A stretch of DNA of 64,000 nucleotides, taken from contig NZ_JADBEB010000001.1 of assembly GCF_014874095.1 (NCBI RefSeq), positions 7,688,001 through 7,752,000 of the forward strand. The letters are read 5' to 3'. The stretch comes from Plantactinospora soyae (GTDB taxonomy: Bacteria > Actinomycetota > Actinomycetes > Mycobacteriales > Micromonosporaceae). Within the stretch, counting starts at the first letter, position 1. The number at the start of each line of letters is the position of its first letter. The translations under genes were made by a program, and so were the position numbers. The notes under the pieces were generated by a model, which was given only the letters and a program-made list of their open reading frames with translations, ran no database searches and was not told where the DNA came from. Shown piece by piece: positions 19,094 to 31,083 of this stretch.

Positions 19094-19429
19094 TCAGGGG
19101 CGGCGGGCCGAGGTCTGCTCCCGGACCACGAACCGGATCGACTTCGCCTCGGTCATGCAGGCCCGCATCGGCCCGACCAGCTCGCGGTGCTCGGGGCTGC
19201 GCTCCCAGGCCTCGAAGTGTCCCAGCGAGACCCACTCGCTGGTGATCAGCCACTGTTCCGGATCGGTCGGGGAGGCACACACCTGATCGACCAGGTGTCC
19301 GTCGACGCCCTCGGCGACCTGGTAGCGAATCCGTTCGTACGCCTGAAGAAACGCGTCGGCGCGCTCGCGCGGCACCCGGATCAGGAACACCACCCGCGCC
19401 TTGGCCGTCTCGGTCAGGTTCTCTGCCAT
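19094..19429 (-). CDS. Antibiotic-biosynthesis-monooxygenase-type protein, last gene of PKS operon
   Basis: 111 residues of the ABM (ferredoxin-like, dimeric alpha/beta barrel) family: ARVVFLIRVPRERADAFLQA, ERIRYQVAEGVDGH, EQWLITSEWVSLGHFEAWE, VREQTSARRP. In type II polyketide clusters such proteins oxidise or cyclise the poly-beta-keto product without a cofactor. Its start overlaps the end of the CLF gene by 16 bases, so it belongs to the polyketide operon. The exact reaction is inferred only. Confidence 0.82.
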   Translation of the reverse strand: MAENLTETAKARVVFLIRVPRERADAFLQAYERIRYQVAEGVDGHLVDQVCASPTDPEQWLITSEWVSLGHFEAWERSPEHRELVGPMRACMTEAKSIRFVVREQTSARRP

Positions 19430-20706
19430 CTGGACACCTCCACCGGGCCGCGCCGCAGCGCCACGGCACTGTTGAAACCATCGAATCCGCGTGCGCACAC
19501 CAGCGCGGTGTCCACCCGCCGGGGCCTGGACTCCCGGACGAAGTTCAACTCGCAGCCGGGCGCCGGGCGATCCGGGCCGGCGGTCGGTGGCAGCATGCCG
19601 TGCCGCATCGCCAACAGCGCGGTGGCGACGTCCAGCGCCGCTCCGCCCTGGTGGGCCCGACCCGTCAACGGCTTCTGCGTGGTGACCGGTGGCTGCCGCT
19701 GCCCGAACACCGTACGCAGCACGTCCGCCTCGCTCCGGTCGTACCGGGGCACGCCGAGCGCGTCCGGAAAGACGACGTCCACCTCGGCAGGATCGATGTC
19801 GGCCCGGGTCAGGGCGAGCCGGATCGCCCGCCCGTACTGGGTCCCGTCGACATCGGCACCGCCGCCCACGTCGCCGCCGTGCGAGGCGGCACCGCGCTGC
19901 TCGGTGTGTCGGGCGTCGTGGGTGGCGCCCCAACCGGCCACCTCGGCGTAGATGGTGTCCGCGCCCCTGGCCACGGCGTGGTCCAGATCCTCGACCACGA
20001 AGATCGCACCGCCCTCGCCGGGGACGTACCCGCTGGCCGCCACGTCGAACGGCCGGTACGCCCGATCCGGTTCGGGACAGACGCTGAGCAGCCCACCACG
20101 GAGCTGACAGGTCAGCGCGTACGGGCTCAGTGGACACTCCGTACCGCCCGCGAGCACCACCGGCGTACCCCGTCGGATCAGCCGGGCGGCGTGTGCCAGG
20201 CTGTCCAGCCCACCGGCGGTCTCCGCGGCGAGCACTCCGCACGGGCCCTTGAACTGGTGCCGGATGGAGAGCTGGCCGACGCTCGCCGCGTAGAACCAGG
20301 CGATCGACTGGTACGCCCCCACCGTGCGGGTGGTCCCCCGCCAGAGTCGCTGGAGTTCACGCTGACCGAACAGGTTGCCGCCGGAGGAACTGGCCAGGGT
20401 GACGGCGTACCCGTAGGGATCGTCGGCCACCTCCGGCAGGCCGGCGTCGGCGAGCGCGAGCCGGGTGGCGGCGAACCCGAGGTGGGTCCACCGGTCGGTC
20501 TGCACCACCTGGCGGTTGTCGGCGTGGTGCAGCGCGTCGAAGTCGGCCACCTCCCCCGCCAGTTGGACGGGGTAGCGGTCCGGATCGAACAGCGTGATCC
20601 GCCCGATCCGGTTCTGCCCGGCGAGTACGCACTTCCAGTGCGCGTCCGCGCCGATTCCGCTCGGCGCGACAACGCCGATCCCGGTGATCACGACCCGGCC
20701 GGTCAT
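19414..20706 (-). CDS. Type II PKS chain length factor (KS-beta)
   Basis: 430 residues homologous to ketosynthases but without the active-site Cys, as in CLF/KS-beta. The domain has the usual thiolase-fold landmarks ([106 protein letters not shown]). At the Cys position it reads A-A-E-T-A-G-G (Thr163), whereas most CLFs read E-Q-A-G-G with the conserved Gln. CLF dimerises with KS-alpha and sets chain length. The start ATG overlaps the KS-alpha stop (ATGA). Confidence 0.92.
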
Positions 20707-21974
20707 CGCGGCGACCCGCCGAACCGGCGCAAGACCATCGCCGACTGGAACCCGCCGAAGCCGCTGCCCACCGAGAGCGCCACCCGCACCGGCACCTCCC
20801 GGGCCACGTTCGGGATGTAGTCCAGGTCGCACTCCTCGTCCCGGTTGGCCCAGTTCGCCGTCGGCGGCACCACCCCGAACTCGATGGCCAGCGCACAGGC
20901 CGCCATCTCGATCGCGCCGATCGCGCCGAGCGAATGCCCGACCATCGACTTGATCGAACTGATCGGAACCTGGTACGCCGCGCTGCCCAGCGCCCGCTTG
21001 AAGGCCGCCGTCTCGTGCCGGTCGTTCTGCCGGGTGCCCGAACCGTGTGCGCTGATGTACGACACGTCCGCCGGATCGCACCGGGCCTGCGCCATCGCAT
21101 CGTCGATCGCCAGGGCCATCTCGACGCCGTCGGGACGCAGGCCGGTCATGTGGTAGCCGTTGCTCCGGTTGGCGTACCCGGCGGCCTCGCAGTAGACCCG
21201 GGCGCCGCGCCGCCGCGCGTGTTCGGCCTCCTCCAGGACGAGCACGGCGGCGCCCTCGGCGAGCACGAACCCGTGCCGGTCCCGGTCGAACGGCCGGGAG
21301 GCGTGCCCCGGGTCGTCGTTGTCCGGGGTGGTCGCCTTGATCGCGTCGAACGAGGCGACCGTGACCGGTGAGATCGGGCTGTCCGAGGCGCCGGCGAGCA
21401 TCACGTCGGCCTCGCCGTCCTCGATCAACTGCTGGCCGTAGCCGATCGCGTCGATCCCGGACGTACAACCGGTGGAAATCACCTGGGCCGGGCCGTACAG
21501 CCCGTGTCGGCAGGCGACGTCGGCGGCGAGGCTGCTCGGCATCAGTGCCTGGTAGAGATACGGTCCGGCCCGGTCCGGGTCGACCAGCCAGTCCGTGCCG
21601 GAGTCGCTGACTGCCACGTACTCCCGCTCCAGCAGCATGGTGCCGCCGACCGCGGAGCCGAGCGCCACCCCGGCGCGCTCCCGCATCGAGTCGGACAGCT
21701 CCAGGCCGCTGTCCGCCAGCGCCTCGATCGAGGCGGCCAGGGCAAACTGGACGTACCGGTCGGAGCGCTGTTGTTCCGCGTCGCTGAGGCCCGCGCGGAC
21801 CGGGTCGAAGTCGCACTCCGCCGCGATCTGCGAGCGGAACGGCGACGGGTCGAAGAAACTGATCCGCCGGGTAGCCGTCCGGCCGGCGGTGATGGTGTCC
21901 CAGAAGCTTCGCCGGGTGACCCCGCCCGGCGCGACCACTCCGATTCCGGTCACCACGGTCCGCCGCCCGGTCAC
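20703..21974 (-). CDS. Type II PKS ketosynthase alpha (KS-alpha)
   Basis: 423 residues, a full-length beta-ketoacyl synthase. Catalytic Cys170 in [14 protein letters not shown], His310 in [11 protein letters not shown] and His347 in [13 protein letters not shown] are all present. The N-terminal [14 protein letters not shown] and the mid [20 protein letters not shown] motifs are typical of aromatic polyketide synthases. It condenses malonyl-ACP extender units to make the poly-beta-keto chain, together with the adjacent CLF. It is coupled by four-base ATGA overlaps to the cupin gene (21971/21974) and the CLF gene. The organisation resembles whiE-type spore pigment clusters. Confidence 0.96.
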
Positions 21975-22426
21975 GGCGCGGCCTCGGTCCGGCCGCCGAG
22001 GACCCCGGCCTCCGGCCGGCCGCCGAAGGTCGCCGCCTCCGCCGCCGACTCGGTGTCGACGTGCCCGAGTTCCGGCCGAGGCGCGAGCGGGCCGAGCTGG
22101 AAGACCACCTCTGCGGGCTCGTCCGCCACGTTGCGCAGCCGGTGCCGGACATTCACCGGTACGTAGAGCGCCTCTCCGGTACGTACCGGCACCGGCTCGC
22201 CGTCGAGGTCGACGATCAGTTCGCCACGGGCGACGTACAGGAACTCCTCGCTGTAGGGGTGGTAGTGCTCGGCGATGCGCTCACCCGGGGCGAGGTTCGC
22301 CACGCCCATGAAGCCGGAGGTGCTGCCGACGGTACGCGGCCCGAGCAGCACCCGGATCTCGCCGCCACGGCGACGGTCCGGCGCGATGTCCCGGGCGGCC
22401 GTCAGCCGGCGGTCGTGCTCACTCAT
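21971..22426 (-). CDS. Cupin domain protein, type II polyketide-associated
   Basis: 151 residues with a double-stranded beta-helix cupin core: [20 protein letters not shown] (H-x-H motif), then [17 protein letters not shown] and a second conserved strand [19 protein letters not shown]. The C-terminal ~40 residues are low-complexity Gly/Ala/Glu. Related small cupins occur in spore-pigment and other type II clusters and may act in cyclisation or as chaperone-like factors. Its ends overlap both neighbours (8 bp with the ACP-aromatase, 4 bp with KS-alpha), consistent with strict co-expression. Confidence 0.85.
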
Positions 22427-23372
22427 CGCCGACCCCGACCGTCGCGGCAGCCGTGCCGACCGGTCCGTTGGCCGGTGATCCGGCGGACGTGCCGGCCGCC
22501 GGCTCCTGCGGGGTGGTGGAGGCGAGTTCGGCGGCGATCCGCTCGATCTTGTCCCGGATGATGTCCAGTTGCACCCGGCTGTTGGCGTTGATCCGCTCCG
22601 TCATCTGGGCGGTGGTCACCGGGGCGGTCGGGCGCATCTCGAAGTCCTGGGTCCAGGTCATCCGGGTACCACCCGGCACCTCGTCGTACCGCCAGTGGAT
22701 CCGCATGTACTCGAAGGGCCCGGTCTCGACCCGGTGGGCGTGCACCTCGCGGCGCACCGGATCGGCGGTGCGCTCGCTGATCCAGCTCCAGATCACGCCG
22801 TTCTCGTCCGGGTACATGGTCAGCCGGAACTGGACGGTGTTCCCATGTTGCTCGAGAATCTGCACCGACTGGTACTCGGTGAACAGGCCGGTCCAGGTCC
22901 CGACGTCGTTGGTCCGGTCCCAGACCAGTTTCGGCGGAGCCGCGATCACCACACTGTTCTCGGTGTGACCGGGCCGGCCGTCGGCACCGGCGGGGCGTCC
23001 GTCCTGGGTCCCGGCCGCTGTAGCGCCCGCGTCGGCCGACGCGGCCGCCGGGGTGGACTGCCGCGCGACGAGGTCGGAGATCTCCGCGATGCTGAGCGCT
23101 CCCGACTCCTCGGGAAGCTGTACCCGGTAGCGGTCCGCGACCACCGCCTGTAGCTCCAGCAGCGCCAACGAGTCCATCCCGAGTTCCTCCAGCGAGGCCG
23201 TCGGCGCCGCGGTCGCCGCCTCGGCGTCCAGGCCGCAGTGCCGGACCAGGATCGCGATGATCTCCGCCGCGGTCGCCGACGACGGCGCGCTGGGCTCCGC
23301 CACGCTCCGGACCGGCTCCCCTCCGGTGCGGGACGGTCCGGCCAACGCCGGGTCCTCGTGTCTCACGGTCAT
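22419..23372 (-). CDS. ACP-polyketide aromatase/cyclase fusion
   Basis: 317 residues joining two proteins that are usually separate. Residues ~30-108 form an acyl carrier protein: [20 protein letters not shown], then the phosphopantetheine site [10 protein letters not shown] with Ser68. A ~25-residue Ala/Gly/Pro linker leads to a SRPBCC (START-like) polyketide cyclase/dehydratase domain at ~137-290: [68 protein letters not shown] ribosome-binding site precedes ATG 23372. The fusion is likely to tether the growing polyketide to the enzyme that aromatises its first ring (inference). Confidence 0.93.
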
Positions 23373-24778
23373 CTGGTCCTCCTCGAAAGATGCGCCGAAC
23401 TGGCCGGAACGGGGTCCTTCGGCGAATCGGGTACGCCGAGCAGCCGGTCGACCAGTCCGGTCGAGTACCGCCCCTTGCGGAATCCCGCGTCGTCGAGGAC
23501 CCGTCGGATGAACGGGATGGTGGTGTGTACGCCGGGACCGTCGACCTCGAACTCGTGCAGCGCCCGTTCCATCCGGCTGAGCGCCAGGTCCCGGTCCGGC
23601 GCCCAGACCACGACCTTGGCGAGCAGCGAGTCGTAGTACGGGCCGACCAGGTAGCCCGGATATCCGTGGGTGTCGGTCCGGGTGCCCGGTCCACTCGGCG
23701 GTGTGAACCTGGTCAGCCGGCCGGGGGTGGGTAGGAAGTTGCGGTCCGGATCCTCGGTGTTGACCCGGCACTCGATCGCGACACCGTGGAGTCGTACGTC
23801 CTGCTGGCGCAGCCGCAGCGGTACGCCCCCGGCGATGTGCAACTGCTCGTGCACCAGGTCGACCCCTGTGATCATCTCCGTCACCGGGTGCTCGACCTGG
23901 ATGCGACAGTTGATCTCGATGAACTGGAAGCGCTCCGCCTCGTCGACCAGGAACTCGAAGGTCCCGGCCCCGGTGTAACCCGCCCGCAGCGCGCCGCGCA
24001 GGGCGGTCTCGGCGAGCGCGTCGAGGGTCGCGCCCGACAATGCCGGCGCCGGTCCCTCCTCGACGAGTTTCTGGTGCCGCCGCTGCACCGAACAGTCCCG
24101 GGTGCCGAGGTGCACCCCGTTGCCGTACCCGTCGCAGAGCACCTGGACCTCGACGTGCCGGGCCGGGCTGAGAAAGCGCTCGACGTAGACCCGGTCGTCG
24201 CCGAACGCGGCCTGCGCGACGACCCGGGTCCGGTCGTACGCCGAGGCGAGGTCGTCGGCGGAGCGGACCACCGACATGCCCCGGCCGCCGCCACCGGCCG
24301 CACACTTGATGATCACCGGGTAGCCGATCTCCTCGGCCACCGCCCTGGCCGCAGCGACCGTGTCGAGGGTTCCCAGGCTGCCCGGCGGAAGCGGAAGCCC
24401 GGCCTCGCCCATCAACGCCCGCGCCCTCGACTTGTCGCCCAGCGCCACCATCACCTCCGGCCGGGGACCGATGAAGACCAGCCCGTTGTCGGCGCAGATC
24501 TCGGCGAAGTCGGCGTCCTCGGACAGGAAGCCGTAGCCCGGGTGTACGGCCTGGGCCCCGGTCTTGCGGGCCGCCTCGATGATGGCGGCGGCGTTCAGGT
24601 AGCTCTGCCGCGCGTCCGGTGGCCCGATGCAGACCGCCTCGTCGGCCAGGCGTACGACGGCGGAGTCGCGGTCCGCGACCGAGTACACCGCGACGGACCG
24701 TACGCCCAGTTCGCGGCAGGCCCGGGCGACCCGGAGCGCTATCTCGCCACGATTGGCGATCAGGATCTTCTCGAACAC
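23369..24778 (-). CDS. accC: Biotin carboxylase subunit AccC of a dedicated acetyl-CoA carboxylase
   Basis: 469 residues, the full length of AccC. The carbamoyl-phosphate-synthase-like N-domain (FEKILIANRGEIALRVARAC), the ATP-grasp domain with a glycine-rich loop (KCAAGGGGRGM, K158-M168) and the biotin-carboxylase C-domain (FQFIEINCRIQVEHPVTEMI; LHGVAIECRVNTED) are intact. It makes carboxybiotin on BCCP. It starts 19 bp after the BCCP gene and overlaps the ACP-aromatase by four bases, so it belongs to the polyketide operon rather than to primary lipid metabolism. Confidence 0.95.
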   Translation of the reverse strand: MFEKILIANRGEIALRVARACRELGVRSVAVYSVADRDSAVVRLADEAVCIGPPDARQSYLNAAAIIEAARKTGAQAVHPGYGFLSEDADFAEICADNGLVFIGPRPEVMVALGDKSRARALMGEAGLPLPPGSLGTLDTVAAARAVAEEIGYPVIIKCAAGGGGRGMSVVRSADDLASAYDRTRVVAQAAFGDDRVYVERFLSPARHVEVQVLCDGYGNGVHLGTRDCSVQRRHQKLVEEGPAPALSGATLDALAETALRGALRAGYTGAGTFEFLVDEAERFQFIEINCRIQVEHPVTEMITGVDLVHEQLHIAGGVPLRLRQQDVRLHGVAIECRVNTEDPDRNFLPTPGRLTRFTPPSGPGTRTDTHGYPGYLVGPYYDSLLAKVVVWAPDRDLALSRMERALHEFEVDGPGVHTTIPFIRRVLDDAGFRKGRYSTGLVDRLLGVPDSPKDPVPASSAHLSRRTR

Positions 24779-24797: not shown

Positions 24798-25499
24798 TCA
24801 CGCGGGTACCAGAGCGATCAGCGGTTGTCCGAACTCGACCGGCTCGCCGTCGTGCACGAGTACCTCGACGACCCGGCCGACCTGGTCGGCGACCACCTCG
24901 TTCATCAGCTTCATCGCCTCGACGATGCAGACCACCTGACCGGGCTCCACCTTGTCGCCGACCTCGACGAACGGTGCGCCACCGGGCTCGGCCGCCTGGT
25001 AGTAGGTACCGACCATCGGAGCGAGGACGGTTCGGCGACCATCGGTGCCGATGGCCGCCCCGGTGACCGCCGGTACGGCGAACGGAGCGGCGTTGGGCGC
25101 GCTGCCGCCCGGCGTTCCGGCACCGGTCCCGGGACCGCTGTTTGCCTCACCGCCGTGCCATTCGATCTCCAGCAGGGCGTCGCCGCTGCGCAGGCGGATC
25201 CGGCGCAACGGCCCGGCGGTCCGCGCCACCAGCCGGCCCGCCTGCCGGCACAACTCGGCGAGTTCCGCCGATCCACCGACCGGCTCCGACTTCCCGGTCG
25301 GCTCCACGAAGCCACCAGCCGACTCCGACTCCGGCTCCGGCTCCGGCTCCGGCTCCACCGATCCACCGACCGGCTCCGGCTCCGGCTCCCGGGTCAGCTC
25401 CACCGATCCACCGACCGACCCCGGCTCCCGGGTCAGCTCCATCGACCTACCGACCGGCACCGCCAACTTCGACTCTCCGATCGCCGCTGCCCTGGTCAT
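24798..25499 (-). CDS. accB: Biotin carboxyl carrier protein with a long acidic/proline-rich N-terminal extension
   Basis: 233 residues. Residues ~155-233 are the biotinyl domain: LAPMVGTYYQAAEPGG, then VCIVEAMKLMNEVVAD with the biotinylated Lys197. The N-terminal ~75 residues consist of imperfect repeats such as GGSVE and PEPEPEPE, probably a flexible tether. The coding start overlaps the AccDA stop by four bases. It carries the activated CO2 between AccC and AccDA. Confidence 0.93.
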   Translation of the reverse strand: MTRAAAIGESKLAVPVGRSMELTREPGSVGGSVELTREPEPEPVGGSVEPEPEPEPESESAGGFVEPTGKSEPVGGSAELAELCRQAGRLVARTAGPLRRIRLRSGDALLEIEWHGGEANSGPGTGAGTPGGSAPNAAPFAVPAVTGAAIGTDGRRTVLAPMVGTYYQAAEPGGAPFVEVGDKVEPGQVVCIVEAMKLMNEVVADQVGRVVEVLVHDGEPVEFGQPLIALVPA

Positions 25500-27337
25500 C
25501 GGGGCTCCGTTCCGGCCGGGACGACGCTGGCCGCCGCTCCGTACCGGCGGAAGCGCTGGCGCCGCCGCCGGATCAGCTCCTCGGTGGGCACATCGAGCAG
25601 CGGTGTCAGGTTGTCCACCAGGGCTCGGCGGAGCAGCGCCGCCGCCCCGGTCGGGTCCCGGTGTGCACCGTCGGCGGGCTCGGCGACGATCGCGTCGGCG
25701 ACACCGAGCCGGAGCAGGTCCGGCGCGGTGAGCCGGAGCGCGTCGGCGGCCCGGGGCACGGCCGCTCGGTCCTGCCAGAGGATCGCGGCGCAGCCCTCCG
25801 GGCTGATCACCGAGTAGACGGCGTTCCGCAGCATCAGTACCCGGTCGGCCACGGCCAGCGCGAGTGCGCCCCCGCTGCCGCCCTCACCGATGATCACTGC
25901 GACGACCGGAGTACGCAGACCGGTCATCGCCAGGATGCTCTGGGCGATGGCGCCGGCCTGGCCCTGCTGCTCGGCCTCGACTCCCGGGTACGCACCCGGT
26001 GTGTCGATCAGGGTGATCACCGGCAGTCCCAGCCCGGCGGCCAACCGCATGACCCGCAGCGCCTTGCGGTAACCGGCCGGGCTGGCCATGCCGAAGTTGC
26101 GGGCCCGCAGTTCGCGTGGATGGTGCCCCTTCTGGTGTCCGATCACGCCCACGTACCGGTCGCCGAGCCGGGCCAGGCCCGCGACTATCGCCGCGCAGTC
26201 GACACCCAGCCGGTCGCCGTGCAGTTCGACGAAGCCGTCGAAGGCGGTGGCCAGATAGTCCAGCGTGGTCGGCCGCCCGGCGTGCCGGGCCGAACGGACG
26301 ATCCGCCAGGCGTCGGGTCGGCTGTCCGGGTCGGGGACGTCGATCCGGCTCTGCCGGCGGAGGCGCTCACCACCCGTTCCGGCCGGCAGCTCGGCTTCGG
26401 CCCCGGCCGGACGCCCGCCCGGGCCGGCGACGCCGCCAGCCGGGCGGGCGGTGCCGGCACCGGTCGGGCGGTGCCCCAGTTCTCCACCCGTGACCTCCGG
26501 GCGCTGTGTGGCGGCGAGCAGCCAGCCCAGCCGGGCCCGCAGGACGCTCCGCTCCAGCACCATGTCGACCTGGCCGTGCCGGAGCAGGAAGCCGGTGGTC
26601 TGGAAGTCTTCCGGCAGTGTCTGCCGGATCGTCTGGCGGATCACCCGGGGGCCGGCGAACCCGAGCCGGGACCCGTTCTCCGCCAGCACGATGTCCGTGC
26701 AGGTCGCGAACGACGCTGCCACACCGCCGTAGGTGGGATCGGTGATCAGACTGACGGTGAGCAGCCCGGCCTCGCGCAGCGCGGCGATCGCCTGGCTGAT
26801 CGTGGCCATCTGCATCAGCGCCAGTACACCCTCCTGCATCCGCGCTCCGCCGGACGCGGTGACCAGGAGCAGCGGAAGCCGGCCGGTCAGGGCACACTCC
26901 GCGGCCCGGGTGATCAGCTCACCGGTGGCCGATCCGAGGCTGCCGCCGAGAAACCGGAAGTCCATGACGGCGAGTACGAGCCGATGGCCGCCGATGCTCG
27001 CCGTGCCGCAGAGCACCGCCTCGGCCAGTCCGGTCTCCGCACGCGCGGCGGCCAGCCGCTGCGGGTACGGCATCGAGTCGACGAATCCGATCGGGTCGAC
27101 CTGCACCGCCACCTCGGGCAGTTGGTCGAACGTCCCCCGGTCGACGAGTTGACGGATCCGCTCCGGCGCCTCCAGTCGACGGTGGTCGCCACATTCGGGG
27201 CACACGTCGAGGTTGCGCCGCAGGCGTTTCCGGTACAGCAGTGCGCGGCAGGACCGGCAGCGGGTCCAGGGCTGCTGGTCGAGATCGGCGAAGACACTCC
27301 GGCGGATGGCGGCCCCGCTCGCCGTTCGCCCGGTCAT
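25496..27337 (-). CDS. accDA: Fused acetyl-CoA carboxyltransferase, AccD-AccA
   Basis: 613 residues in which the beta subunit (AccD, ~1-285) and alpha subunit (AccA, ~325-600) are one polypeptide. The beta part has the zinc ribbon Cys27/Cys30/Cys46/Cys49 and crotonase-fold signatures (SLGSATGELITRAAECALTG, TASGGARMQEG); the alpha part has LHGDRLG, VIGHQKGHHPRE, IDTPGAYPGVEAEQQGQAGA and IGEGGSGGALALAVAD. A Pro/Gly-rich linker joins them. It should produce malonyl-CoA for the polyketide pathway. Both ends overlap the neighbours by four bases. Confidence 0.93.
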   Translation of the reverse strand: MTGRTASGAAIRRSVFADLDQQPWTRCRSCRALLYRKRLRRNLDVCPECGDHRRLEAPERIRQLVDRGTFDQLPEVAVQVDPIGFVDSMPYPQRLAAARAETGLAEAVLCGTASIGGHRLVLAVMDFRFLGGSLGSATGELITRAAECALTGRLPLLLVTASGGARMQEGVLALMQMATISQAIAALREAGLLTVSLITDPTYGGVAASFATCTDIVLAENGSRLGFAGPRVIRQTIRQTLPEDFQTTGFLLRHGQVDMVLERSVLRARLGWLLAATQRPEVTGGELGHRPTGAGTARPAGGVAGPGGRPAGAEAELPAGTGGERLRRQSRIDVPDPDSRPDAWRIVRSARHAGRPTTLDYLATAFDGFVELHGDRLGVDCAAIVAGLARLGDRYVGVIGHQKGHHPRELRARNFGMASPAGYRKALRVMRLAAGLGLPVITLIDTPGAYPGVEAEQQGQAGAIAQSILAMTGLRTPVVAVIIGEGGSGGALALAVADRVLMLRNAVYSVISPEGCAAILWQDRAAVPRAADALRLTAPDLLRLGVADAIVAEPADGAHRDPTGAAALLRRALVDNLTPLLDVPTEELIRRRRQRFRRYGAAASVVPAGTEPR

Positions 27338-27678
27338 CGCCGGCCCTGCGCGGAGTCGGCCGACGCGTCCCAGCGGTAGAAGCAGCGTGCCATGGCGTCC
27401 GCCGGCACCCGCCAGGTCGCCAGGTACGGCGAGATGTGCGGGGCCAGGCGCTCGCTCACCCGGACGAACTCCGGATGCCGGCGCGCACCTTCGACGGCGG
27501 CCCCACCGGGACTGTCGGTCTCGACAAGGTGGACATAGAGATCGTGCAACCGGTAGAGCGAGCGGTGCCGCACGCCCACCAGCCGGGGTAGTTCGGTCCG
27601 GTCCGACTCGGCGAAGATCTGTGCCACCTGCTGCTCCGCGGCCGGAACAACCTTCGCGACGATCAGCGAGCGATCCAT
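27334..27678 (-). CDS. TcmI-type polyketide cyclase (first copy)
   Basis: A 114-residue dimeric alpha/beta-barrel cyclase of the TcmI family: MDRSLIVAKVVPAAEQQVAQ, FAESDRTELPRLVGVRHRSL, YVHLVE, AMARCFYRWD. Such enzymes cyclise or aromatise poly-beta-keto intermediates in type II pathways. It is the first gene of the operon, and a candidate SARP box lies 137 bp upstream. It is clearly paralogous to the cyclase at 29372 (both keep VGVRHRSLYxL or TGVRHRSLYQL and AMARCFYxWD). Confidence 0.93.
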   Translation of the reverse strand: MDRSLIVAKVVPAAEQQVAQIFAESDRTELPRLVGVRHRSLYRLHDLYVHLVETDSPGGAAVEGARRHPEFVRVSERLAPHISPYLATWRVPADAMARCFYRWDASADSAQGRR

Positions 27679-28188: not shown

Positions 28189-29049
28189 GTGACCTCGAAG
28201 GAGAGCGAGCCGCACGACGGGGTACGCCGGCCGCCGGCCCAACCGCCCGCTCAGACGATCCAACTGCTGCTCCTGGACGGGTTCAACCTGCTGCACGACG
28301 GGGCACCAATCGTCGTACCGCGTGGACTGCAACGGATCATCGCGCTGATCGGCCTGCGTCCGGGTGCGACCCGGGCCCACCTGGCCGGTCTGCTGTGGCC
28401 GGACACCGCGGAGGAACGGGCGATGTCGTCCCTGCGTACGGCGCTGTGGCGACTGCGGCAGGAGGGCAGCTGTCCGGTACTGACCGCCGGCGACACCGTC
28501 CGGCTCGACCCGGTGGTGATGCTGGACATCGACGACCTCGTTCGGGCCGCCGAGCGGGTCCGGGACGGTGCGGACCCCCGCTGGGCCGCGAAGATCCTCA
28601 CCGCCGGCCGACACGACCTGCTACCCGGCTGGTACGACGAATGGGTCCTGCCCGAACGCGAGCGGCTGCGCCAGTTGCGGCTGCACATGCTGGAGGAGAT
28701 CGCCCGTGGCCACCTGCGGGCCGGGCAGCACGGCGAGGCGCTGCAGGCGGCCCTCGAGGCGGTACGGGCCGAGCCGCTCCGGGAGACACCGCACCGGCTG
28801 ATCGTCGAGACCCACCTCGCCGAGGGCAACGCCTACGAGGCGCTGCAGGCGTTCTACGTCTATCGTGACCTGCTGCTGCGGGAGCTCCAACTGGAGCCGT
28901 CCGAGGCGATGTGCGGCCTGCTCAGTGATCTTCTCGCCCCGATACCCAGGCCGACGATCACGCACGCGCCACGCCCGAAGCCCCAGTCCTCGCGCCCCGG
29001 GCCGTACGCCGGGCGGTCGGCCCTGCCGGCGATGCCGGGACCGCGCTGA
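28189..29049 (+). CDS. SARP-family pathway-specific activator
   Basis: 286 residues from GTG 28189, with GGAGGG 8 bases upstream. An OmpR-like winged-helix DNA-binding domain (~20-100; LLDGFNLLHDGAPIVVPRGL, then HLAGLLWPDTAEERAMSSLR) precedes the bacterial transcriptional activator domain (LLPGWYDEWVLPERERLRQL, ALQAALEAVRAEPLRETPHR, LQAFYVYRDLLLRELQLEPS). A proline-rich tail of ~40 residues has no similarity to the family. No C-terminal NB-ARC/TPR part is present, so it is the short class. It is the expected regulator of the polyketide operons on both sides. Confidence 0.92.
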   Translation: MTSKESEPHDGVRRPPAQPPAQTIQLLLLDGFNLLHDGAPIVVPRGLQRIIALIGLRPGATRAHLAGLLWPDTAEERAMSSLRTALWRLRQEGSCPVLTAGDTVRLDPVVMLDIDDLVRAAERVRDGADPRWAAKILTAGRHDLLPGWYDEWVLPERERLRQLRLHMLEEIARGHLRAGQHGEALQAALEAVRAEPLRETPHRLIVETHLAEGNAYEALQAFYVYRDLLLRELQLEPSEAMCGLLSDLLAPIPRPTITHAPRPKPQSSRPGPYAGRSALPAMPGPR

Positions 29050-29371: not shown

Positions 29372-29716
29372 ATGAATCGTGTGCTGATCGTGGGCAGGAT
29401 CGTTCCGGGGACCGAGGAGGCGATCGCGAAGATCTTCACCGAGTCCGACGAGACGGACCTGCACACCGTCACGGGGGTACGACACCGCTCGCTCTACCAG
29501 CTGGGCGACCTGTGCCTGCATCTGATGGAGACGGAGGAGTTCTCGCCGGCCCGGATGGAGCAGGCGAACCGGCATCCGCTCTTCGCCAGCGTCACCGAAC
29601 GGCTCTCGGCGTACATCTCGCCGTACTCGCCGAACTGGCAGTCCCCCCGCGACGCCATGGCCCGGTGCTTCTATCAGTGGGACGGTCCCGGATCGGCGAC
29701 CGGCACCCCACGTTGA
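29372..29716 (+). CDS. TcmI-type polyketide cyclase (second copy)
   Basis: 114 residues, the same size and family as the product at 27334. Landmarks: MNRVLIVGRIVPGTEEAIAK, SDETDLHTVTGVRHRSLYQL, CLHLMETEEFSPARME, YISPYSPNWQSPRDAMARCF. Paired TcmI-like genes could close different rings or act at successive steps; which one acts when cannot be read. The ribosome-binding site GGGGAGACGAC precedes ATG 29372. It is followed after 17 bp by the FAD monooxygenase, probably in one transcript with it. Confidence 0.93.
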   Translation: MNRVLIVGRIVPGTEEAIAKIFTESDETDLHTVTGVRHRSLYQLGDLCLHLMETEEFSPARMEQANRHPLFASVTERLSAYISPYSPNWQSPRDAMARCFYQWDGPGSATGTPR

Positions 29717-29733: not shown

Positions 29734-31083
29734 ATGCCCGGCAGACCGTTACACGTGATCGTCATCGGGGCCGGCACCGGCGGCATGTGCCTGGCGCACG
29801 GCCTGCGACGCGCCGGCATCAGCGTCGCGGTCTACGAGCGGTACCGGACCCGCAGCGACGGGCTGCTCGGCTACCGGGTCGGGATCAACCCGACCGGTTG
29901 CCGGGCCCTGCGGGAGTGCCTGCCGCCGGAGTTGTTCACCACCTTCCTCGCAACCTGCGCCCGGGCGCCCCGGTTCTTCAACGTGCTGACCGGGCAACTG
30001 CACCGGACGGCGTCCTTCGCGCTGCGCCCCGATGCGGACCCGACGAGCATCGACCAGTCGGTCTCCCGGATGACCCTGCGCCAGATCCTGCTCACCGACA
30101 TGGACGACGTGGTCCACTTCGGTAAGACCTTCACCTCTTACGAGCAGCACGACGACGGCACCGTCACCGCCCACTTCGGCGACGGCACCTCGGCGACCGG
30201 CGACCTGCTCGTCGCGGCCGACGGCACCCACTCGGCGGTACGCCGGCAGTATCTGCCGCACGCCGAGGTCAAGGACGCCGGAAGCATCAACATCGCCAGC
30301 AAGATTCCGCTCACCGAGTACACCCGGAGCCTGCTCTCCGACGAGATCCGGGGCGGAATCTCGCTGATCTTCGGTGCCGGGGGGCTGATGGGCGTCCTGC
30401 ACGTGATGGAGTTCAAGTGGGACCAGCGCGGCTCGGTCAAGCCTGGCGTCGGGGTGACCGACGCGAGCCTGATCGGAAGCTGGCCGGGGCTGCTCTACGA
30501 CAACACGCGGGACTGCATCAACCTGATCATCTGGAGCGCAGCGGACCGGTTTCCCGAGGACGTGATGGAGCTGCGGGGTGAGCGGCTCGCCAAGGTCGCG
30601 CTCGACCTGACCCGGAACTGGCACCCCACGCTGCGCGAGCTGCTCCGGCACAGCGATCCGGGCAGCGTCATCCCGATCAAGGTCGCCACCTCCGTACCGG
30701 TGGAGCCGTGGAAGAGCAGCAACATCACGCTGCTGGGCGACGCGATCCACACCATGACCCCCGGGCGGGGGGTCGGGGCCAACACCGCACTGCGGGACGC
30801 GGCACTGCTCCGCCGGCACCTGGTCGCGGCGGTGGCCGACGCCGGCCCCCTGGTCACGGCGGTCGCGGACTACGAGACCGAGATGATCCGGTATGGCTTC
30901 GCCCGGGTCGCCGACTCGCTGCGTACCAACGGCACCAACGGGGACGATCCGATCTACAAGCCGATCATCGGCCGGTTCGCGATGCTGGCCGCCCGGGGCT
31001 ACTTCAGTGTGACCAGCAGGCTGCCTCCGCTGCGCCGGAAGTTCGTCGACGAGCTCTACAACTACCGGGGCGCGGAGAGCTGA
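29734..31083 (+). CDS. FAD-dependent aromatic polyketide monooxygenase
   Basis: 449 residues of the UbiH/PHBH-like flavoprotein hydroxylase family. FAD motif VIVIGAGTGGMCLAHGLRRA (Rossmann GxGxxG), DLLVAADGTHSAVR (DG motif) and NITLLGDAIHTMTPGRGVGA (GD motif) are present. It should hydroxylate a polyphenolic ring of the polyketide product using NAD(P)H and O2. Similar enzymes lie at the equivalent position in spore-pigment and other type II clusters. GGAAGAGGG precedes ATG 29734. Confidence 0.93.
   Translation: MPGRPLHVIVIGAGTGGMCLAHGLRRAGISVAVYERYRTRSDGLLGYRVGINPTGCRALRECLPPELFTTFLATCARAPRFFNVLTGQLHRTASFALRPDADPTSIDQSVSRMTLRQILLTDMDDVVHFGKTFTSYEQHDDGTVTAHFGDGTSATGDLLVAADGTHSAVRRQYLPHAEVKDAGSINIASKIPLTEYTRSLLSDEIRGGISLIFGAGGLMGVLHVMEFKWDQRGSVKPGVGVTDASLIGSWPGLLYDNTRDCINLIIWSAADRFPEDVMELRGERLAKVALDLTRNWHPTLRELLRHSDPGSVIPIKVATSVPVEPWKSSNITLLGDAIHTMTPGRGVGANTALRDAALLRRHLVAAVADAGPLVTAVADYETEMIRYGFARVADSLRTNGTNGDDPIYKPIIGRFAMLAARGYFSVTSRLPPLRRKFVDELYNYRGAES

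Follow-up and report, generated by a model that had tools for sequence, protein, structure and literature searches.

A carrier protein fused to a WhiE-type aromatase/cyclase in type II polyketide clusters of the Micromonosporaceae

The window, by which we mean the whole stretch of 64,000 nucleotides of Plantactinospora soyae DNA that was analysed, contains a group of aromatic-polyketide genes in which a carrier protein (ACP) and an aromatase/cyclase (ARO/CYC) are encoded as one polypeptide. Genes were called from GC content by codon position together with ribosome-binding sites (RBS), and were named with Pfam.

19094 to 19429, minus strand: antibiotic biosynthesis monooxygenase-type protein (ABM; PF03992, Pfam)
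19414 to 20706, minus strand: chain length factor (CLF), usual Gln motif replaced
20703 to 21974, minus strand: ketosynthase alpha (KS), GCTSG active-site motif with Cys170
21971 to 22426, minus strand: cupin (PF07883, Pfam)
22419 to 23372, minus strand: ACP-ARO/CYC fusion, 317 amino acids, with the ACP at about 34-106, a linker at about 107-132, a WhiE-type ARO/CYC at about 133-286 and a variable tail at 287-317
23369 to 24778, minus strand: biotin carboxylase (BC; Pfam)
24798 to 25499, minus strand: biotin carboxyl carrier protein (BCCP; PF00364, Pfam)
25496 to 27337, minus strand: carboxyltransferase of acetyl-CoA carboxylase, with beta and alpha encoded by a single ORF (AccD-AccA; Zn ribbon, Carboxyl_trans, ACCA)
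27334 to 27678, minus strand: TcmI-like polyketide cyclase (PF04673), with which the presumed operon starts
28189 to 29049, plus strand: regulator with a BTAD domain, SARP-like, divergent (Pfam)
29381 to 29716, plus strand: second TcmI-like cyclase (PF04673, Pfam)
29734 to 31083, plus strand: FAD monooxygenase/hydroxylase (PF01494, Pfam)

The minus-strand genes from 27678 down to 19094 overlap or are separated by gaps within about 20 nt, and because of this spacing they presumably form a single operon running from the TcmI-like cyclase to the ABM gene. The fusion gene, which sits between the biotin carboxylase gene and the cupin-KS-CLF group, reads open over 317 codons between its ATG and its stop. 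It has an RBS-like GAGGAGG just 5' of the ATG at 23372, and it shares 4 nt with the upstream biotin carboxylase gene and 8 nt with the downstream cupin gene. An earlier note on this DNA had the coordinates of the gene right but did not state its strand, which is minus; the plus strand of 22419-23372 is interrupted by stops.

Pfam, the open reading frame and an AlphaFold model all bear out that note's description of an ACP and a START-like ARO/CYC in one polypeptide beside KS and CLF. Pfam matches are to PP-binding (PF00550) at residues 37-89 (26.5 bits, cut-off 20.8), to Polyketide_cyc (PF03364) at 143-256 (56.3 bits, cut-off 23.4) and to PF10604 at 136-277 (47.4 bits, cut-off 27.4); in an NCBIfam scan all ACP matches fell below the cut-offs and there was no cyclase match. 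The residue that had been named as the phosphopantetheine site, Ser68, is indeed the serine of LGMDSL, which has the (D/E)SL signature of type II polyketide synthase (PKS) ACPs, and it is predicted to be phosphopantetheinylated. The linker, likewise described correctly, is 65% Ala, Gly or Pro over residues 107-132. In the AlphaFold model 210 of the 317 residues have a pLDDT of at least 90, and they make up two confident domains, the ACP helices (35-106) and the START-like domain (135-286). Linker residues 110-124 are below 50, the ends are also of low confidence, and the pTM of 0.58 makes the placement of the domains relative to each other unsure.

The cyclase half is 57% identical to Streptomyces coelicolor WhiE ORFVI (E 9.6e-57 to 3tvr) and 47% identical to TcmN (PDB 2RER). 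The first-ranked Foldseek match of the model is 3tl1 (rmsd 1.3, TMt 0.92), and the domain has the helix-grip fold. Arg201 aligns with WhiE residue 69, the pocket arginine that corresponds to TcmN R69, and is invariant across a hand-picked set of 36 aligned fusions; a review (PMC12664062) describes the pocket arginine of TcmN-type ARO/CYCs as important. For the 50 matches listed of 1675 in a Foldseek search of the PDB (E up to 10), alignments to the 317-residue model were at most 167 columns long, which means that no listed match spans both domains. The WhiE and TcmN monodomain ARO/CYCs are free-standing single domains, and here an ACP lies in the same ORF; the protein is therefore a fused variant and not a member of the monodomain class.

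Each domain of the fusion is ordinary, and other cyclase fusions are known, namely TcmN, with a methyltransferase, and BexL and StfQ. WhiE ORFVI (3TL1, 3TVR) is like the fused cyclase in fold and in its retained arginine, but it is a separate protein, and in the named Streptomyces loci the WhiE-type cyclase gene follows a separate ACP gene. TcmN belongs to the same family; unlike the fusion, it is by its entry name a cyclase-methyltransferase, and it is not known to carry an ACP at its N terminus. The didomain ARO/CYCs BexL and StfQ are likewise single chains in which a cyclase is fused to another domain, but both of their domains are of the helix-grip cyclase type (PMC12664062), and neither is a carrier protein.

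A cupin, KS, CLF, ACP, ARO/CYC and TcmI-like cyclase, which constitute a whiE-like gene set, occur together in the window, although the canonical whiE order KS-CLF-ACP-ARO is replaced by BC-ACP.ARO-cupin-KS-CLF. Named Streptomyces loci share the cupin, KS, CLF, TcmI-like cyclase and ABM genes with the window, and one of them (L106) has the order ABM-cupin-KS-CLF-ACP-ARO-TcmI. The window cluster differs from WhiE and these Streptomyces loci in its one-chain ACP-ARO, in an order that runs carboxylase genes-ACP.ARO-cupin-KS-CLF, and in the added carboxylase set. Judging by these genes, the product is probably a whiE-like aromatic polyketide of the C24, spore-pigment type. AccD and AccA share a single ORF at 76 of the 80 loci tested, and the carboxylase genes lie inside the pigment-like operon. 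The active-site position of CLFs is usually Gln. Of 87 fused-cluster CLFs, 86 have Thr, Ser or Ala there, the CLF of locus L130 alone keeping Gln, and the four named Streptomyces loci have Glu.

The earlier note had suggested looking for other such fusions near KS and CLF genes, and they proved to be numerous. Scoring a fusion when an ACP match and an ARO match share one stop-free frame, we obtained 234 loci, with some genomes counted twice, of which 155 are fused (128 distinct stretches), 74 are split and 5 have no detectable ACP. The whole protein as query gave matches in 166 of the 300 genomes of a family sample; 113 of these were classified, 4 of them with no ACP found, and the best loci from this search were fused in 30 of 30 cases. 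P. alkalitolerans has the same fusion over residues 1-317, at 82% identity. Named loci from Micromonospora, Salinispora, Plantactinospora, Verrucosispora and one unclassified member of the Micromonosporaceae account for the fusions in 76 of 80 cases, and the other four, all Streptomyces, are all split; this named set was retrieved with combined ACP and ARO patterns, and such a search is biased towards fusions. Genomes of genus g4 that matched over the ARO half, taken by rank, were fused in 40 of 40 cases. Another set, which came mostly from genera whose matches covered the ARO only and included some g4 genomes, had 6 fused loci among 20.

ARO-only searches are free of the bias of the combined pattern, and were directed either to the phylum as a whole or to genera beyond the main fused genera. 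One of them had 1 fused locus among 27 (22 split, 4 with no ACP found). Genus g50, which we call Streptomyces-like because its loci group with the named Streptomyces in the ARO tree, had 0 fused among 26 (30 of its 135 matching genomes gave loci, 26 of them new). Across the phylum 2 of 11 loci were fused, one of them the window, with 8 split and 1 without an ACP; the ARO was found in only 11 of 396 genomes of that sample, the window's included, so the sample says little about other families. The fusion marks a clade of spore-pigment-like systems and is frequent in part of the Micromonosporaceae.

Trees were quick IQ-TREE runs with SH-aLRT as the only branch support, on thinned sets of rows: 130 of 234 for ARO, 47 of the 107 loci with both KS and CLF for KS, and 61 for ACP+ARO, where 5 rows without an ACP were left out. 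The 26 main-clade fused rows of the KS tree form one clade (SH-aLRT 97), whose sister is the split cluster L122 (99). L122 is one of seven split clusters of the same order, carboxylase-ACP-ARO-cupin-KS-CLF (L111-L114, L116, L121 and L122), and the six others come next, weakly (76). The ARO tree places 59 fused rows in the main clade (93) with L122 as sister (88), and the ACP+ARO tree recovers the same arrangement (88 and 84). Among the loci examined, the main fused clade contained no split member.

Three fused loci lie outside this clade: L130 (genome G189), L128 (G005) and L157/L235 (contig G251:C80). The first two have the order cupin-KS-CLF-ACP.ARO. The cluster of the third includes carboxylase genes of its own as well as genes for a methyltransferase and a SnoaL-like cyclase and two halogenase-like genes, and its KS and CLF are further along the same contig (L248), well away from the fusion. 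This cluster on G251:C80 (L235, L248) probably makes a halogenated aromatic polyketide.

Fitting the fused and split states requires four changes on the ARO tree, four on the ACP+ARO tree and two on the KS tree; well-supported branches alone force one, two and two, respectively. A single origin of all ACP-ARO fusions was rejected by AU tests. Holding all fused rows as one clade gave p = 4.9e-5 for ACP+ARO, with L128, L130 and L157 included, and p = 4.7e-28 for KS, a test that bears on L130, the sole outside fusion in that set, because L128 (no whole CLF) and L157/L235 (KS on the separate stretch L248) are absent from the KS tree. Adding one outside row to the main clade was rejected in every case (L130, p 0.006; L157, p 0.008; L128, p 0.021). 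The all-fused set was defined from gene structure ahead of any tree, and the single-row tests were chosen after the ARO tree had been seen. Caution is needed with L128 as a separate fusion because it comes from a 69% complete draft, has its CLF in two frames and has the p value of 0.021; it is the weakest case of a separate origin, and alone it stays doubtful as a real fusion. These trees suggest that ACP and ARO were joined in three lineages at least, and probably in four. The unusual clade proposed in the earlier note does appear as a fused clade, but the fusion is not a one-genome curiosity and seems to have arisen more than once.

The junctions of split loci hint at how this could happen. 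The ACP stop is TGA in 72 of 74 split loci, and the nearest ARO start is 1 nt past the stop in 44 of the 74 and overlaps it as ATGA in 16. The L122 junction is TGA-G-ATG-CCC-GGG-CAC, so that its ARO begins M-P-G-H, and 134 of 152 main-clade fused loci have PGHTEN at the junction point with the Met gone. This pattern reads as a loss of stop and start between two already abutting genes, and since the genes abut, the fusion is mutationally easy. Within the 14 codons before the ARO, an in-frame ATG is present in 1 of 155 fusions (L157), and an in-frame GTG or TTG in 100 of 155, so some internal initiation is possible and may give some free ARO. Linker length ranges from 3 to 54 residues among fusions by one measure, and linker sequence is not conserved. 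A Salinispora fusion with a very short linker (L050) was modelled with a mean pLDDT of 91.6 and without a low-confidence stretch at the joint. The wide range of lengths argues against a precise shared geometry and suggests a loose one.

Abutting split homologues also mean that one indel could fake a fusion, by an error of sequencing or assembly that joins two genes, and the incomplete draft and broken CLF of L128 are what such an error might look like. We give this explanation, which the earlier note had itself raised, a negligible probability, since the same fusion recurs in the 76 named loci, its linkers have diverged, and 154 of 155 fusions have no in-frame ATG within the 14 codons before the ARO. 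For the window the artefact is ruled out by its one-contig genome and by the independent genomes that share the fusion.

The same junctions are what would be expected if fusion were a neutral ratchet, in which a small indel joins abutting genes and the product, working just as the separate proteins did, is inherited without gain. Most split loci have TGA-N-ATG or ATGA junctions, linkers are conserved in neither length nor sequence, and the seven same-order split clusters persist. As a control, neighbouring gene pairs with less than 250 nt between matches were compared in 110 loci; the resulting counts are of loci, mostly from one clade, and not of events. ACP and ARO are in one ORF in 89 of 110 loci, compared with none for KS-CLF (0/108), cupin-KS (0/109), BCCP-BC (0/82), AccAD-BCCP (0/74), TcmI-AccAD (0/66) and CLF-ABM (0/61), two for ARO-cupin (2/93) and one for BC-ACP (1/73). 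One gene junction has thus been fused several times while neighbouring junctions mostly have not. This disparity, with KS-CLF and cupin-KS never joined, and the lack of a split member in the main clade argue against the neutral explanation, which we consider rather unlikely, even though ARO-cupin has been fused once in another genus and ARO junctions may be just permissive.

That other fusion is found in genus g19 (L112, L116, L131, L132, L133, L135), where the C terminus of the ARO/CYC is joined to the cupin and the ACP is separate. At L066:8555-10672(+), in Micromonospora sp. KC213, BC, ACP and ARO share one 706-codon frame, possibly a triple fusion or a sequencing slip.

We moderately favour a didomain carrier-cyclase that makes a covalent hand-off of the ACP-bound chain to the first-ring cyclase of a whiE-like pathway. 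KS-CLF would build a poly-beta-ketone on the fused ACP from malonyl-CoA that the operon's own carboxylase could supply. By analogy with WhiE and TcmN, the tethered ARO/CYC would then take the ACP-bound chain and close the first ring, C9-C14, before spontaneous folding, and the rings might be completed by the FAD hydroxylase and the ABM protein together with the TcmI-like cyclases. A chance encounter of ACP and ARO would be replaced by an intramolecular hand-off, and their ratio would be fixed at 1:1; the channelling or fixed stoichiometry proposed in the earlier note is therefore plausible. The hand-off may occur within one molecule or between two. The existence of seven same-order split clusters indicates that such a pathway can do without the fusion.

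The fused ACP is most likely the elongation carrier because no other carrier was detected in the window, whose 64 kb were searched with an ACP profile made from the families described here. Nor was a second ACP detected in three loci that span nearly all of contig G251:C80, where there was one match only. Alternatively, KS-CLF might use a fatty-acid ACP or a downstream ACP, and the fused ACP might receive or hold the finished chain. A second ACP match followed by a KS match does lie downstream of CLF/ABM in 38 of 89 fused loci, and in the two inspected (L050 and L065) the ACP match is weak and lies beyond the ABM gene by 3 to 4 kb. Such an ACP is absent from the window cluster and from the Plantactinospora locus L032, however, and the cluster ACP found next to KS-CLF-ARO in split relatives is of the same family as the fused one, so we regard a non-elongating role as quite improbable. 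The second ACP of Micromonospora was dropped as a general feature owing to its absence from the window and L032. At L065:17530-20665(+) an AMP-binding enzyme lies beyond the second ACP, and Pfam did not recognize the ACP-like ORF tested; these downstream genes may belong to the cluster or to a neighbour of it.

The 2025 review PMC12664062 states that extension to the full chain depends on the WhiE ARO/CYC, and a tether that keeps a cyclase with every carrier fits this need. The same review describes type II systems as sets of proteins with one or two domains each and no covalent link between them, and treats poor ACP-ARO/CYC interaction or compatibility, and the passing of the chain between the two, as a recognized weak point that limits type II PKS engineering (PMC12664062). 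A type II PKS is present in all Salinispora arenicola strains studied and is thought to be the source of black spore pigment, according to PMC12838356; we infer that this PKS is the same locus as our Salinispora loci.

As a tentative broader proposal, to which we give somewhat less credence than to the hand-off itself, type II PKSs of the Micromonosporaceae may have moved repeatedly and independently part-way to a type I layout, since a whiE-like cyclase would have to sit at the synthase during chain building; the didomain would then solve the problem of ACP-ARO/CYC compatibility. Fungal non-reducing type I PKSs have a product-template domain that folds the first ring, and an ACP, in one polypeptide. 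Their product-template domain differs from the fusion in cyclase fold and domain order, and to our knowledge these fungal enzymes are not relatives of the ACP-ARO/CYC fusion, in which, unlike the fungal case, KS-CLF stays separate. The product template of fungal PKSs is named in PMC12664062.

The earlier note had allowed that such fusions might be common and already described. They are common in part of the Micromonosporaceae, but we found no description of an ACP-ARO/CYC fusion among the open-access papers that our searches listed, including the accessible text of PMC10132072, PMC7949117, PMC12664062, PMC3462128, PMC4383371, PMC13213394 and PMC3848822; subscription papers were mostly outside this search. 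The ACP-ARO/CYC didomain is a candidate part for synthetic pathways. Recurrent fusions with flexible linkers, together with the same-order split clusters, provide matched pairs for the effect of tethering on chain length, ring pattern and yield. A fused and a split cluster occur together, as a natural matched pair in one host, in each of two genomes: G001 (L237 fused, L122 split) and G114 (L238 fused, L123 split).
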